From: Pseudomonas sp. CBZ-4
GTDB taxonomy: Bacteria; Pseudomonadota; Gammaproteobacteria; Pseudomonadales; Pseudomonadaceae
Reading direction: 5' to 3'
Length of the DNA stretch: 64,000 nucleotides
Assembly: GCF_000346755.1 (NCBI RefSeq)
Contig: NZ_ANNV01000077.1
Coordinates: 1-64,000, forward strand
The position numbers and the translations under genes were made by a program. The notes beneath the pieces are model-generated. The model worked only from the letters and a program-made list of their open reading frames with translations, was not told the origin of the DNA and did not search any database. Shown here one piece after another: positions 4,959 to 63,037 of the stretch (the stretch's first letter is position 1; the number at the start of each line of letters is the position of its first letter).

Positions 4959-5858
4959 ATGAAATCCTTCGCTTTAGCGTGCGCCCTGCTTGCCCTGGCC
5001 TTGAGCCTCAGCGGCTGCATCGGTGCCCCCATCGCCCTCACGCCGCAAACCGAACAACGCCTGCAAGCCCAGGCGCCGATCCGTTTCCTGCTGACTTTCG
5101 ATGACGGCCCCAGCGCCTCCGGCTACAACAACCCGAGCCGCTCGGTGGTCGCTGACCTGGCGCACAACCCGACTCTGCCAGGTATCAAGGCGGTGTTCTT
5201 CCTGCAGACCGAATCCTCACGCTCCGGTGGCAGCTCACGTGGGCGCAAGACCATGGAGCGCGAGTACGCCGGCGGGCACATCCTGGCCTTCCACACGGCC
5301 ACGACGTTTCATACCAACCATCGCTGGCTGAACGACGCCGAGCTGGAAAGCACCCTCAGCCAAGGCGCGGCCGACATCGCCTCGATCACCGGCCGCCCGC
5401 CCCTGCTGGTGCGCCCGCCGTTCTGGAACTACGACCGCCGCACCTTCGCCGCCTACCAGCGGCATGGCATGCACGTGCTGCTGACCGACTTGAGTGCCAA
5501 TGACGGCAAGATCTGGGGCTTCAACGGCAGCCCGCGCCGTCGGGCCAACCTGTACCGGCAACTGTCGGTGGTGCGCGAGCGCATTGCGTTGGAGGAATTG
5601 CCGACGGTGGACGGGGTGATTCCGGTGGTGGTGACGTTTCACGACATCAACCGCTACACGGCGCGGCACATTCAGGAGTACTTGCAGATCCTGCTGGACA
5701 GCGCACGGATCAACGGCATGAAGACGGCGGCCGAGCCGTTCTACACCGACACGGCCCAACTCGAACGCGCCGCACTGGCCCGCACGGTGAAGGATGTGAG
5801 TGAACCGGTGCACCTGCCGGGCGTGTGGAACTGGGTGTGGGATGCCGATTCCCACTGA
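4959..5858 (+). CDS. Lipoprotein polysaccharide deacetylase family protein
   Basis: A 299-residue protein with a lipoprotein signal peptide (lipobox LSGC, Cys20) and a NodB-type carbohydrate esterase 4 fold. Motif 1 is FLLTFDDGPSASG near 43, with the two aspartates that bind metal and act in catalysis. AFHTATTFHTNH near 109 supplies the histidines of motif 2. RPPFWNYD near 151 is motif 3, and VVTFHDIN near 226 carries a late catalytic histidine. The likely reaction is N-deacetylation of a cell-surface or exopolysaccharide amino sugar in the envelope; the substrate is unknown. Its last codons are included in a 193-bp tandem duplication that follows. Confidence 0.82.
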   Translation: MKSFALACALLALALSLSGCIGAPIALTPQTEQRLQAQAPIRFLLTFDDGPSASGYNNPSRSVVADLAHNPTLPGIKAVFFLQTESSRSGGSSRGRKTMEREYAGGHILAFHTATTFHTNHRWLNDAELESTLSQGAADIASITGRPPLLVRPPFWNYDRRTFAAYQRHGMHVLLTDLSANDGKIWGFNGSPRRRANLYRQLSVVRERIALEELPTVDGVIPVVVTFHDINRYTARHIQEYLQILLDSARINGMKTAAEPFYTDTAQLERAALARTVKDVSEPVHLPGVWNWVWDADSH

Positions 5859-5872
5859 CACCCTGCAGTTAA

Positions 5873-5961
5873 TGTGGGAGCTGGCTTGCCTGCGAAAGCG
5901 GTGGGTCAGCTAAACAGTTGCTGGCTGATGCACCGCCATCGCAGGCAAGCCAGCTCCCACA
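5873..5961. repeat. REPIN (inverted REP pair), copy 1
   Basis: Inverted arms TGTGGGAGCTGGCTTGCCTG and CAGGCAAGCCAGCTCCCACA flank a spacer of about 40 bp. One arm has GCGAAAGC where the other copy has GCGATGGC. Confidence 0.85.
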
Positions 5962-6065
5962 GTTGATCGCATTTCAGGTTCAGGAGGGTTGGTGTAAGTG
6001 GCATTCGCCGCTGCTGCCCCGCACTGGTTGTAGGACACCAATCCCCACTGACACCCTGCAATTAA

Positions 6066-6154
6066 TGTGGGAGCTGGCTTGCCTGCGATGGCGGTGGGTC
6101 AGCTAAACAGTTGCTGGCTGATGCACCGCCATCGCAGGCAAGCCAGCTCCCACA
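6066..6154. repeat. REPIN (inverted REP pair), copy 2
   Basis: Near-identical to the copy at 5873-5961, including the spacer that reads GTCAGCTAAACAGTTGC; part of the tandem duplication. Confidence 0.85.
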
Positions 6155-61061: not shown

Positions 61062-61559
61062 ATGACCGCCGGTATTTCTGCCCGTACACCCCAGCAAGCC
61101 CTGGCCGCCTTGCTCGACCTGCACCAGCCCAAACGCCTGCTGCTGTTGGGGGCCAGCCAGTTCCCGGCGCTGGAGGCGTTTGCGGCCGAACACCCGGACA
61201 CCCAAGTGTCCATCGCCCCGCCCGGCCCCTTGCCGGCCGAGCTTGCTGCGCAGCGTTTTGACCTGGCGCTGGTGGTCGATTGCCTGGAACACCTGTCAAA
61301 AGCGCAAGGCCTGACCTTGCTCGGCGGCGTCCGCAACCTCAATGCCAGCCGCATTGCGGTGCTGGTGGACCTGGGCGCATGCGAATGGAAGGACACCGAC
61401 TTCTTCTCCCTGGCCTTGCAGGCCGGCGAGCGGTTCCAGCGCGAGGAGCAGGTTCTGACGCTGTTTACCTACGATCTGCTTGACTATAAACAGGTGCCCG
61501 ACTGGCTCAACGCGCGGTTCTGGGCCAACCCGCAAAATTTTGGAAAGTATTGGTGGTAA
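61062..61559 (+). CDS. DUF6231-like protein
   Basis: A 165-residue soluble protein with a Rossmann/methyltransferase-like core (KRLLLLGASQFPALEAFAAE, FDLALVVDCLEHLSKAQGLT, SRIAVLVDLGACEWKDTD), resembling the DUF6231 family of gammaproteobacteria. The glycine loop typical of SAM-dependent enzymes is incomplete. Function unknown. Its last 16 bases (61544-61559) recur 1,003 bp downstream, immediately before the ychJ-like gene, marking the boundary of an inserted mqsRA module. Confidence 0.7.
   Translation: MTAGISARTPQQALAALLDLHQPKRLLLLGASQFPALEAFAAEHPDTQVSIAPPGPLPAELAAQRFDLALVVDCLEHLSKAQGLTLLGGVRNLNASRIAVLVDLGACEWKDTDFFSLALQAGERFQREEQVLTLFTYDLLDYKQVPDWLNARFWANPQNFGKYWW
61544..61559 (+). repeat. 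16-bp direct repeat, left boundary of the mqsRA insert
   Basis: AAAGTATTGGTGGTAA forms the last five codons and stop of the upstream gene. An identical copy is at 62547-62562. Confidence 0.85.
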
Positions 61560-61571
61560 GCCGATAAGAAC

Positions 61572-61973
61572 CTAGGCTGTTCGGACTTCGTCAAGCAACT
61601 CAGGGTGGCGGTCGAGCACCCTGAGAAGCTTTATGAGCGCCAAGGGCGGTTTCGTCTTGCCGTTCTCATAGCGAGAAAAAGCGTTGACCCCTCCGCCGAA
61701 TATCTCGGCCGCCTCCCGCTGGTCCAACGATAGTTTCTTACGCACTGCGGCGATAAAACCGGGATCTACGAGGTCTGCGTTGACTCGCTTGGAGAATGCC
61801 CTCATTTCTTTCATGACGCGATCCGATTCAGCCAAACCCAAAATCGACTCGGAGCAAGAGGGGCAGAACTCACCCATGACATTCTCAATCACCGTCGTTT
61901 CGCCTTTGTACGAATAGGGTAAGTCGCGGGTGTCGTGGACCAAGCCCGCCGCACCACAAACAGGGCATTTCAT
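61572..61973 (-). CDS. mqsA: Antitoxin and repressor MqsA
   Basis: A 133-residue antitoxin. The zinc-binding N-terminal domain has Cys3, Cys6 (MKCPVC), Cys37 and Cys40 (FCPSC). The HTH C-terminal domain has LSLDQREAAEIFGGGVNAFS, then RYENGK, with Asn97 and Arg101 at the positions that contact DNA in E. coli MqsA. It neutralises MqsR and represses the operon. ATG 61973 has AAGGAG eight bases upstream and gives the canonical MKCPVC start; the ATG at 61979 overlapping the mqsR stop would be only two bases from that site. Confidence 0.93.
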   Translation of the reverse strand: MKCPVCGAAGLVHDTRDLPYSYKGETTVIENVMGEFCPSCSESILGLAESDRVMKEMRAFSKRVNADLVDPGFIAAVRKKLSLDQREAAEIFGGGVNAFSRYENGKTKPPLALIKLLRVLDRHPELLDEVRTA

Positions 61974-61975
61974 AT

Positions 61976-62272
61976 TCATAGCTCCTTGAAGGACACGATC
62001 AGTACGTCTTCGATAACCGTGAGTTTCAGGTAGACCGTCCCTGCCTTCGTGCGTGGCCGGTACACGTCTTGCCATATCGTGTGGTCGGCATAAGTAGTCA
62101 TGCTCTTGTAAAAATCCATGGGCTCGAGGGCCAGTATCACGGCCAACATCCCGGCAAGGTCAAGGTTGAGCTCCTCGGCGCCGAGACGTGCAGAGTGAGT
62201 CGTGCGAACCTTCCCAGTTTCAACCAAAGCCTTGACGGTATTCAGCTTGCAGTGAGGCGTCCATTTCTCCAT
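61976..62272 (-). CDS. mqsR: mRNA interferase toxin MqsR
   Basis: A 98-residue RelE-superfamily endoribonuclease that cleaves mRNA at GCU-type sites and induces growth arrest. Catalytic residues known from E. coli are at the same positions: Lys56, Gln68, Tyr81 and Lys96 (DFYKSM, TIWQDVYRPR, TVYLKLT, SFKEL). Toxin before antitoxin is the normal mqsRA order. Two palindromic operator-like sites lie immediately upstream. Confidence 0.93.
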   Translation of the reverse strand: MEKWTPHCKLNTVKALVETGKVRTTHSARLGAEELNLDLAGMLAVILALEPMDFYKSMTTYADHTIWQDVYRPRTKAGTVYLKLTVIEDVLIVSFKEL

Positions 62273-62282
62273 GTTCGAAACT

Positions 62283-62322
62283 AACCTAATTGGTTTTATT
62301 TTGGCAAGTAGGTTAATTACCT
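62283..62322 (-). promoter_or_regulatory. Palindromic operator sites of mqsRA
   Basis: AACCTAATTGGTT (62283-62295) and AGGTTAATTACCT (62310-62322) are 13-bp palindromes with AACC/GGTT and AGGT/ACCT arms, 11-50 bp before the mqsR start. MqsA in E. coli binds AACCT-N-AGGTT palindromes, so these are the expected autoregulatory sites. The remaining 240 bp up to the second direct repeat hold a GAACCTC-AGC-GAGGTTC hairpin (62361-62377) but no gene. Confidence 0.72.
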
Positions 62323-62546
62323 GCGCAGCGTCGCTTGAGAGGTACCAAGCGGGCCCAATGGAACCTCAGCGAGGTTCGGCGAACCAGCGACGAAATGTCT
62401 CAAGGCATGAACTGGCCAGTTGCTTCCCTGCGCTAGTGGCCGTCGAGTTCCCTGACGATCCTCTGTAGTATCCGGTCATAGGCCGTCATTGAGCTTTTCT
62501 GCGGTAATGCCAAGGCTTGGCTAACGTTATCTCTGACAGAATTCTA

Positions 62547-62562
62547 AAAGTATTGGTGGTAA
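62547..62562 (+). repeat. 16-bp direct repeat, right boundary of the mqsRA insert
   Basis: Exact copy of 61544-61559 (AAAGTATTGGTGGTAA). Here it supplies the GGTGG ribosome-binding site of the next gene, whose ATG follows after CCCA. Confidence 0.85.
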
Positions 62563-62566
62563 CCCA

Positions 62567-63037
62567 ATGAGTACATCCATTTGCCCCTGCGGCAGTGGCA
62601 ACCTGCTGGATGCCTGCTGCGGTCATTATCACGCCGGCCACCCGGCACCGTGCGCCAGCGCGTTGATGCGCTCGCGCTACAGCGCCTACGTGCTGGGCCT
62701 GGTGGACTATCTGGTTGCCACCACCTTGCCCGCGCAACAGGCCGGCCTGGACCGCGACGCCATCGGCGCCTGGAGCGCCCAAAGCACCTGGCTGGGCCTG
62801 GACGTGGAAAGCTCCGAGGTGTTCGGCGGCCAGCCGGAACACGCCTTTGTGACCTTTACCGCACGCTGGCATGACAGCACTGGCGAACATAGCCACCGCG
62901 AACAGTCTTCTTTCGTACAGAATGACGGGCGCTGGTACTTCATCGACCCCACCGTGGAGGTGAAGGCCGGACGCAACGATGCCTGCCTGTGTGGCAGTGG
63001 GCAAAAATTCAAGAAGTGTTGTTCCAGCTACCTCTAA
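62567..63037 (+). CDS. YchJ-family SEC-C protein (UPF0225)
   Basis: A 156-residue protein with two SEC-C zinc motifs: [13 protein letters not shown] near residues 6-18 and [13 protein letters not shown] at the C-terminus (about 140-152), around a NTF2-like core ([19 protein letters not shown]). E. coli YchJ (152 residues) has the same layout. SEC-C motifs often contact the ribosome or SecB-like partners. The next gene starts 19 bp later, with AGGA, so the three genes to 63736 are likely one operon. Confidence 0.88.

Follow-up and report, generated by a model that had tools for sequence, protein, structure and literature searches.

An mqsRA toxin-antitoxin module flanked by a duplicated gene end at the DUF6231-ychJ junction of Pseudomonas sp. 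CBZ-4

Toxin-antitoxin (TA) pairs are known between cistrons at plastic loci, and the mechanism of their integration is stated to be unelucidated in the accessible part of a 2020 review (PMC7167474). The E. coli cases given there are mazEF within relA-mazG, yafNO within dinB-yafP and ccdO157 within folA-apaH. Restriction-modification (RM) genes insert with target duplications according to the accessible text of PMC3874152, which cites Nobusato 2000 and Furuta 2010. Among recombinase-bearing elements, SE elements have the gene order intA, tfp, intB, srap (PMC10214605, accessible part), and GInts are similar to SE elements in organisation (PMC5385486, accessible part).

At the mqsRA locus of Pseudomonas sp. 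CBZ-4 described here, an ordinary TA module has been inserted, in a precise and polarised event, at a gene-end hotspot, with a target duplication of 16-28 bp. The locus resembles the E. coli intercistronic pairs, as these are presented in the accessible part of PMC7167474, in that the pair lies between cistrons that are adjacent in strains without it and that the loci also hold other elements. At the CBZ-4 site the gene end is duplicated, and other cargo at the junction bears recombinases. RM systems, again from the accessible text of PMC3874152, are alike in being small addiction modules with target duplication flanks and with movement unlinked to a known mobile element; CBZ-4 differs in carrying a TA rather than an RM system and in a duplication of 16-28 bp versus the order of 100 bp. 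As in integrative elements of tyrosine recombinases, target-derived direct repeats lie at both ends and empty sites exist, but there is no recombinase gene among the open reading frames (ORFs) taken as genes. Unlike SE elements and GInts, the module lacks the four-gene recombinase operon, the conserved termini and the footprint of about 6 bp, although the junction is also used by islands of such organisation in two genomes (G231 and G232) and by an island sharing only their ends in a third (G279). Beside mqsRA all ORFs are too short for a known transposase of a DDE transposon or insertion sequence, and among the inverted repeats found none links the two module ends.

The window analysed is a stretch of 64,000 nucleotides of the CBZ-4 genome, and the features of the locus are collected in Table 1. 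The first-pass annotation, made from the letters of this window, had described mqsRA as bounded by a 16-bp direct repeat, and the repeat AAAGTATTGGTGGTAA was indeed found at both places. The left copy consists of the 13 final coding bases and the stop codon of the DUF6231 gene; the right copy ends 4 bp 5' of the ATG of the YchJ-family gene. No further copies were found within the window with 2 mismatches allowed, and none arose in 100 shuffles; with 1 mismatch allowed, the full 6.5-Mb genome gave no others either. The 987 bp between the repeat copies is also single copy in the genome. A REP or chance repeat was ruled out because AAAGTATTGGTGGTAA is unique in the genome. Other 16-base direct repeats in the window amount to 111 overlapping word pairs spaced 100-3000 bp apart. 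Separately, positions 5851-6120 of the window hold two partly identical stretches with 193 bp between them, which include the REP-like word GTGGGAGCTGGCTTGC.

Table 1. Features of the DUF6231-mqsRA-ychJ locus (positions in the window)
Feature	Position	Strand	Evidence and remarks
DUF6231 gene, 3' end = target site	61062..61559	+	Pfam PF19742, E 4.4e-49; in 198/199 genus genomes
Left repeat, exact part	61544..61559	+	reaches 61565 (22 bp, P. kairouanensis vs empty sites); 61571 (28 bp) at most
mqsA antitoxin gene	61572..61973	-	PF15731, E 3e-63; phmmer vs E. coli MqsA/YgiT 2kz8, 3gn5, E 1.1e-44
mqsR toxin gene	61976..62272	-	PF15723, E 5.2e-34; upstream of mqsA in operon
Operator-like repeats AACCTAATTGGTT ... 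AGGTTAATT	62283..62318		upstream of mqsR
Tail without assigned function	62320..62546		73% identity with P. kairouanensis copy
Right repeat, now in ychJ leader	62547..62562	+	
ychJ-like gene (YchJ middle domain, SEC-C)	62567..63037	+	PF17775, E 1.6e-27; PF02810

Deletion of 61560-62562 in silico leaves a gene spacing of 4 bp, as had been proposed, and most close empty relatives have 4 bp at this position (for example TAA-CCCG-ATG). The earlier reading that the insertion copied the gene end agrees with these empty sites and with the unique repeat pair. The insert is more AT-rich than its surroundings, also as first noted, with 53.6% GC versus 61.9% in the window; only 0.9% of 975-bp segments are equally low. 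Its contents were seen as described, namely mqsR, mqsA, an operator-like stretch and non-coding DNA, of which about 227 bp have no assigned function. The sole ORFs of the insert taken as genes are mqsR and mqsA, in line with the reported lack of an integrase. The claim that both neighbours remained functional stands as far as structure goes: DUF6231 and ychJ are intact and the ychJ leader is conserved, with 22 of 22 bases ahead of the ychJ ATG (62545-62566) the same in Pseudomonas kairouanensis; functionality itself is presumed from sequence.

The length of the duplication was delimited by comparison with P. kairouanensis KC12 (G067), which carries the same module. The two repeat copies of CBZ-4 are 86% identical over a 28-nt alignment, and those of P. 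kairouanensis have 19 exact bases in common. The left copy in the latter, AAAGTATTGGTGGTAACCCGAT, is identical to bases 1-22 of the empty site as seen, for example, in G321 and G101. The bases GTAC, two bases past this 22-bp match, also agree with the target. Assignment of GTAC to the target is uncertain because CGTACCTAGGCGGT is common to P. kairouanensis and the mqsA 3' flank of another mqsRA locus (L038); these may be bases of the module rather than of the target. We therefore give the duplication as 16 bp exact in CBZ-4, with 22 bp supported and 28 bp at most, as suggested by these alignments. With limits set by the longest possible repeat, the module proper is 975 bp (61572-62546); the mqsA stop codon lies at its left edge and the right repeat begins immediately past the other. 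A shared GATG to GATA change in both left copies was considered as proof of one event and was dropped because those bases may be the module's own.

Both proteins are close to the E. coli pair. MqsR gives a 97-residue gapless alignment with E. coli MqsR (3hi2, E 2.4e-38), and residues 1-131 of the 133 of MqsA align with E. coli MqsA (2kz8, 3gn5). MqsR has K56, Q68, Y81 and K96, which we take to be its key residues, at those positions. MqsA combines PF15731 with an HTH_3 domain and has C3, C6, C37 and C40, presumably the N-terminal Cys4 zinc site. The operon begins with mqsR, followed by mqsA. The CBZ-4 pair is thus like E. coli MqsR-MqsA in the near full-length alignment of both proteins and in the toxin-first order, and differs solely in chromosomal context and the associated tail. 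MqsR and MqsA would be an ordinary type II toxin-antitoxin pair, with activity expected from the family. A second, distant mqsR-like gene (45% identity) lies outside the window in CBZ-4 (G000:C104:26855-27151). Many other Pseudomonas genomes gave similar matches, at 40-49%, suggesting a separate and widespread MqsR-like gene.

The operator-like repeats upstream of mqsR are presumably MqsA boxes. Of 27 other Pseudomonas loci, 18 have a match to this stretch ahead of mqsR (E 0.006 or better). The tail gave no Rfam match, and its folding energy is ordinary (z 0.28 vs shuffles); the tail as an RNA was rejected on these grounds. For an attC-like site of an integron cassette, the folding energy was the one property considered. 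No sigma-70-like promoter was detected in it. When 293 relatives were searched with the module, 38 genomes matched, and only CBZ-4 and P. kairouanensis did so across the tail. A 23-base exact tail match in G169 does not extend, and the tail as a piece of another element was discarded on this ground. A 23-position tail pattern was found in one contig of genome_contigs, from P. kairouanensis, in a collection from which own or near records are possibly absent.

Empty sites, for which the first-pass annotation had proposed a search in related genomes, are the rule in the genus. We used 398 Pseudomonas genomes sampled evenly from a larger genus set; within-species polymorphism is hardly sampled, because nearly all are one genome per species. 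DUF6231 and ychJ are adjacent in 382 of the 398. The junction holds mqsRA in 3 (CBZ-4, G302 and G067), tyrosine-integrase islands in 3 (G064, G307 and G189) and larger islands in 3 (G231, G232 and G279); other cargo at the junction, also anticipated earlier, was thus found in both forms. Among the 30 best-scoring DUF6231 loci (of 199 genomes), 28 were empty and 2 occupied (CBZ-4 and G067). The third carrier at the junction, G302, is flagged as the same species as CBZ-4 and came from a search for mqsR, which gave a match in 177 of the 398 genomes and from which 30 loci were inspected.

The adjacent class was built from sequence patterns. A looser pattern (the repeat, then ATGAG within 1-12 bases) matched 296/398 genomes; of the 102 outside it, 89 were checked in the DNA and 12 via coordinates, with G076 left over. 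A stricter pattern, in which GAYTGG must also stand at its proper position within the final DUF6231 codons, matched 289/398, and its reversed control matched 0. The 382 adjacent genomes are the 289 of the stricter pattern (about 150 matches viewed; ychJ not confirmed gene by gene) and 93 established individually. Four genomes (G077, G103, G366 and G376) match the looser pattern and not the stricter one, for which either an insertion or sequence variation may be responsible; they stand outside all classes and have no mqsR match. Two more were left out of the classes: G076, where ychJ is cut at the contig start, and G330, which has no true ychJ match. Adjacency holds even where DUF6231 identity is 62-65%. 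G345 (L142), counted apart from the adjacent class, has a spacer of 130 bp, where the adjacent pairs that were measured range from -2 to 23 bp.

The islands at the same junction make the DUF6231 gene end an insertion hotspot, a recurrent target of site-specific recombinases. DUF6231 is full length in G064, G307 and G189, and a tyrosine integrase gene lies about 30 bp beyond it. The integrase has 493 and 494 aa in G064 and G307 (Pfam Phage_integrase), and that of G189 gave a match 79% identical to that of G064. Some 6.4 to 7.9 kb on, the final 14-15 codons of DUF6231 recur, abutting ychJ (the last 14 residues in G307, the last 15 in G064). The two copies of the DUF6231 end are non-identical: in G307 the longest exact word that they have in common, AGTTCTGGGCCAACCCGGAAA, has 21 bases, and in G064 it has 11. 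Judged by G307, the crossover of the integrase islands seems to fall within AGTTCTGGGCCAACCCGGAAA, which lies 5' of the mqsRA repeat. Further products of the G307 island are a resolvase and a SIR2-like protein, the latter (L216:16551-19112, 853 aa, in a 7.9-kb island) being a possible defence gene.

In the larger islands, DUF6231 and ychJ are 40.2 kb (G279), 32.9 kb (G232) and 20.2 kb (G231) apart. The islands of G232 and G231 open with genes of 382-383, 558 and 627-629 aa plus a 142-aa gene. In G232 the first product matches Phage_integrase (E 2.6e-19), the second matched no Pfam family, the third matches Phage_integrase at E 1.6e-4, below Pfam's cut-off, and the 142-aa protein matches DUF6262, also below cut-off. 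By gene order, compared with published descriptions rather than with sequences, these two islands are probably SE/GInt-like. HxxR boxes were dropped as a means of telling the island recombinases apart, such words being present in all three proteins. The G279 island (L161, L162 and L096, at G279:C2:400000-441500, 40 kb between DUF6231 and ychJ) has the same ends and a siderophore-type cargo (NRPS, TonB receptor, FecCD, ABC transport); the third, IntB-like recombinase of the SE-like islands was not matched in it. At the left junctions of the large islands the target bases are kept up to CCGATGA or an equivalent, and on the right about 6 variable bases, judged by eye, lie ahead of the ychJ start. 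A 62% relative of the SE-like third recombinase is present in G101, located elsewhere in a genome with an empty junction.

The module has no convincing nucleotide similarity to these islands. No 9-base word is common to mqsRA and the G232 island ends, comparison with the large islands gave nothing beyond chance-level matches, and the G064 integrase island gave a single weak match of 36 bases (78%, E 0.007). In the carriers CBZ-4, G302 and P. kairouanensis, nothing matched the IntB-like recombinase of the SE-like islands. The mqsRA repeat of 16-28 bp stands against about 6 variable bases on one side in the SE-like islands. The crossover points and ends of the islands differ from those of mqsRA, and therefore neither family is shown as its mover.

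We also compared 27 other mqsRA loci for flanking repeats (410 bp left, 600 bp right). The longest shared flank word was at most 11 bases at 25 of the 27, 13 at L062 and 16 at L041, the latter REP-like by eye; the largest word in single-base shuffles of the flanks was 14. A stretch of about 46 bp with the operator, but not the tail, is common to other mqsRA loci. On these grounds mqsRA as a widespread mobile element with fixed ends was not supported. A phage or plasmid origin was rejected as well: no phage record matched, the 36 plasmid records that match include none covering at least 80% of the query, and one viral contig gave a partial MqsR match. By sequence context, mqsRA may recur at a few fixed places in Pseudomonas. 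The module lies upstream of seemingly the same gene (a release-factor-like start, by eye) in L037, L040 and L046, and L051, L055, L058-L061 and L063 apparently have one right-hand neighbour in common.

The structure of the insertion, the empty sites and the same junction in two species are observed. We put at about even chances the reading that one ancestral insertion took place at the attB-like gene end, by a recombinase that acted in trans or has since been lost, and was followed by vertical inheritance; the probabilities that we attach to this and the competing explanations are not mutually exclusive. A 975-bp unit of mqsRA, operator and 227-bp tail would have been inserted at the DUF6231 stop codon in the ancestor of the clade, leaving 16 to 28 bp of target copy on each side, with DUF6231 keeping its end and ychJ its ribosome-binding leader. 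The unit would have been a small circle that carried or had copied the target and that probably entered by site-specific integration, with a tyrosine recombinase, in trans or later deleted, as the presumed catalyst. It would then have been retained as an ordinary MqsR/MqsA type II pair. Between CBZ-4 and P. kairouanensis both genes have low dN/dS (about 0.05 for mqsA, with dN 0.061 and dS 1.28, and 0.14 for mqsR, with dN 0.110 and dS 0.80, vs 0.11 for DUF6231 and 0.02 for ychJ).

A serious rival, somewhat unlikely in our judgement, needs no recombinase: a fragment with mqsRA would have been captured in a staggered break at the junction, and the gaps then filled in and sealed. It is consistent with a module that has no recombinase, with edges and repeats that do not coincide with the inferred crossover points of either island family, and with the microhomology of 4 bases, GTAC, that P. 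kairouanensis has at the left edge. RM systems likewise insert with duplication (PMC3874152, accessible text), the fill-in step being our own suggestion. The same text, however, puts the long RM duplications in the order of 100 bp, random capture gives no reason for the gene end being hit by two families of recombinase islands as well, which may be coincidence, and 25 of the 27 other mqsRA loci have no flanking exact repeat above 11 bases.

The left edge of mqsRA in P. kairouanensis (CCCGAT/A, with the slash at the edge) lies within 2 bases of the SE-like left junction (CCCGATGA/T). Because of this near coincidence we propose, as an unlikely model, that mqsRA is a minimal unit with no recombinase of its own: it would travel as a small circle, and resident islands would supply in trans the recombinases that integrate it at the gene-end hotspot, with 16-28 bp from the left flank copied rightward as an enlarged Tn554/SE footprint. 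We consider it quite unlikely that mqsRA is the remnant of a larger integrase-bearing island that lost all but its mqsRA end. Recombinase-bearing islands do enter the DUF6231-ychJ junction, and such a remnant would account for a 227-bp tail that has no other explanation, but the known islands have other crossover points and ends, and the mqsA stop codon sits at the module edge. The same minimal unit is moreover present in both carrier species, and the deletion would thus need to be older than their divergence.

Vertical descent of a single insertion was weighed against the relationships of the carriers. Module ends and site are identical in CBZ-4, G302 and P. kairouanensis. In a tree of the 5.8-kb rapA region, these three and G359 form one clade (support 100/99); the tree holds the 30 best-scoring of 50 genomes picked by DUF6231/junction similarity, and other near relatives may be missing. 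G359 has an empty junction, with one extra C in the spacer. Its pairing with P. kairouanensis is weak (support 74/50), and a clade of just the three carriers was not rejected (p-AU 0.349). The data therefore fit a single gain, either alone or followed by one precise loss.

Entry in one species with transfer by homologous recombination of the flanks, or two gains at the same site, is of slim probability. The empty G359 within the carriers' clade is in its favour, as is synonymous divergence, with dS of 0.80-1.28 in mqsRA vs 0.37-0.49 in the flanks, about 1.6 to 3.4 times higher; the excess may reflect an earlier split of the modules, weak codon bias or noisy estimates from short genes. Identity between CBZ-4 and P. 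kairouanensis is 87% for DUF6231, 81% each for mqsA and mqsR, 73% for the tail and 93% for ychJ, and the 27% divergence of the tail is consistent with synonymous divergence in the flanks. This speaks against transfer or a double gain, as do the homology and identical position of the ends and tail and the clade of carriers not being rejected. That mqsRA is ancestral at the junction and was deleted between the repeats in all other lineages is very unlikely on distribution, with the genes adjacent in 382/398 genomes, including those with DUF6231 62-65% identical, and with a repeat that duplicates DUF6231 coding sequence, although direct repeats permit precise loss and this may explain the empty G359.

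TA insertion between cistrons is already known; the hotspot itself was not found described in the literature searched, and no description of a DUF6231-ychJ mqsRA locus was found in titles and abstract openings, a search with few subscription papers within reach. The CBZ-4 junction is a clean case for asking how TA modules enter chromosomes. The insertion is polarised, the target and the duplication are defined to a few bases, close relatives have empty sites and two island families share the junction. With a defined target, empty sites and recombinase islands at the junction, the question of TA integration becomes testable. The locus also shows a way for an insertion to leave both genes of a tight pair intact.
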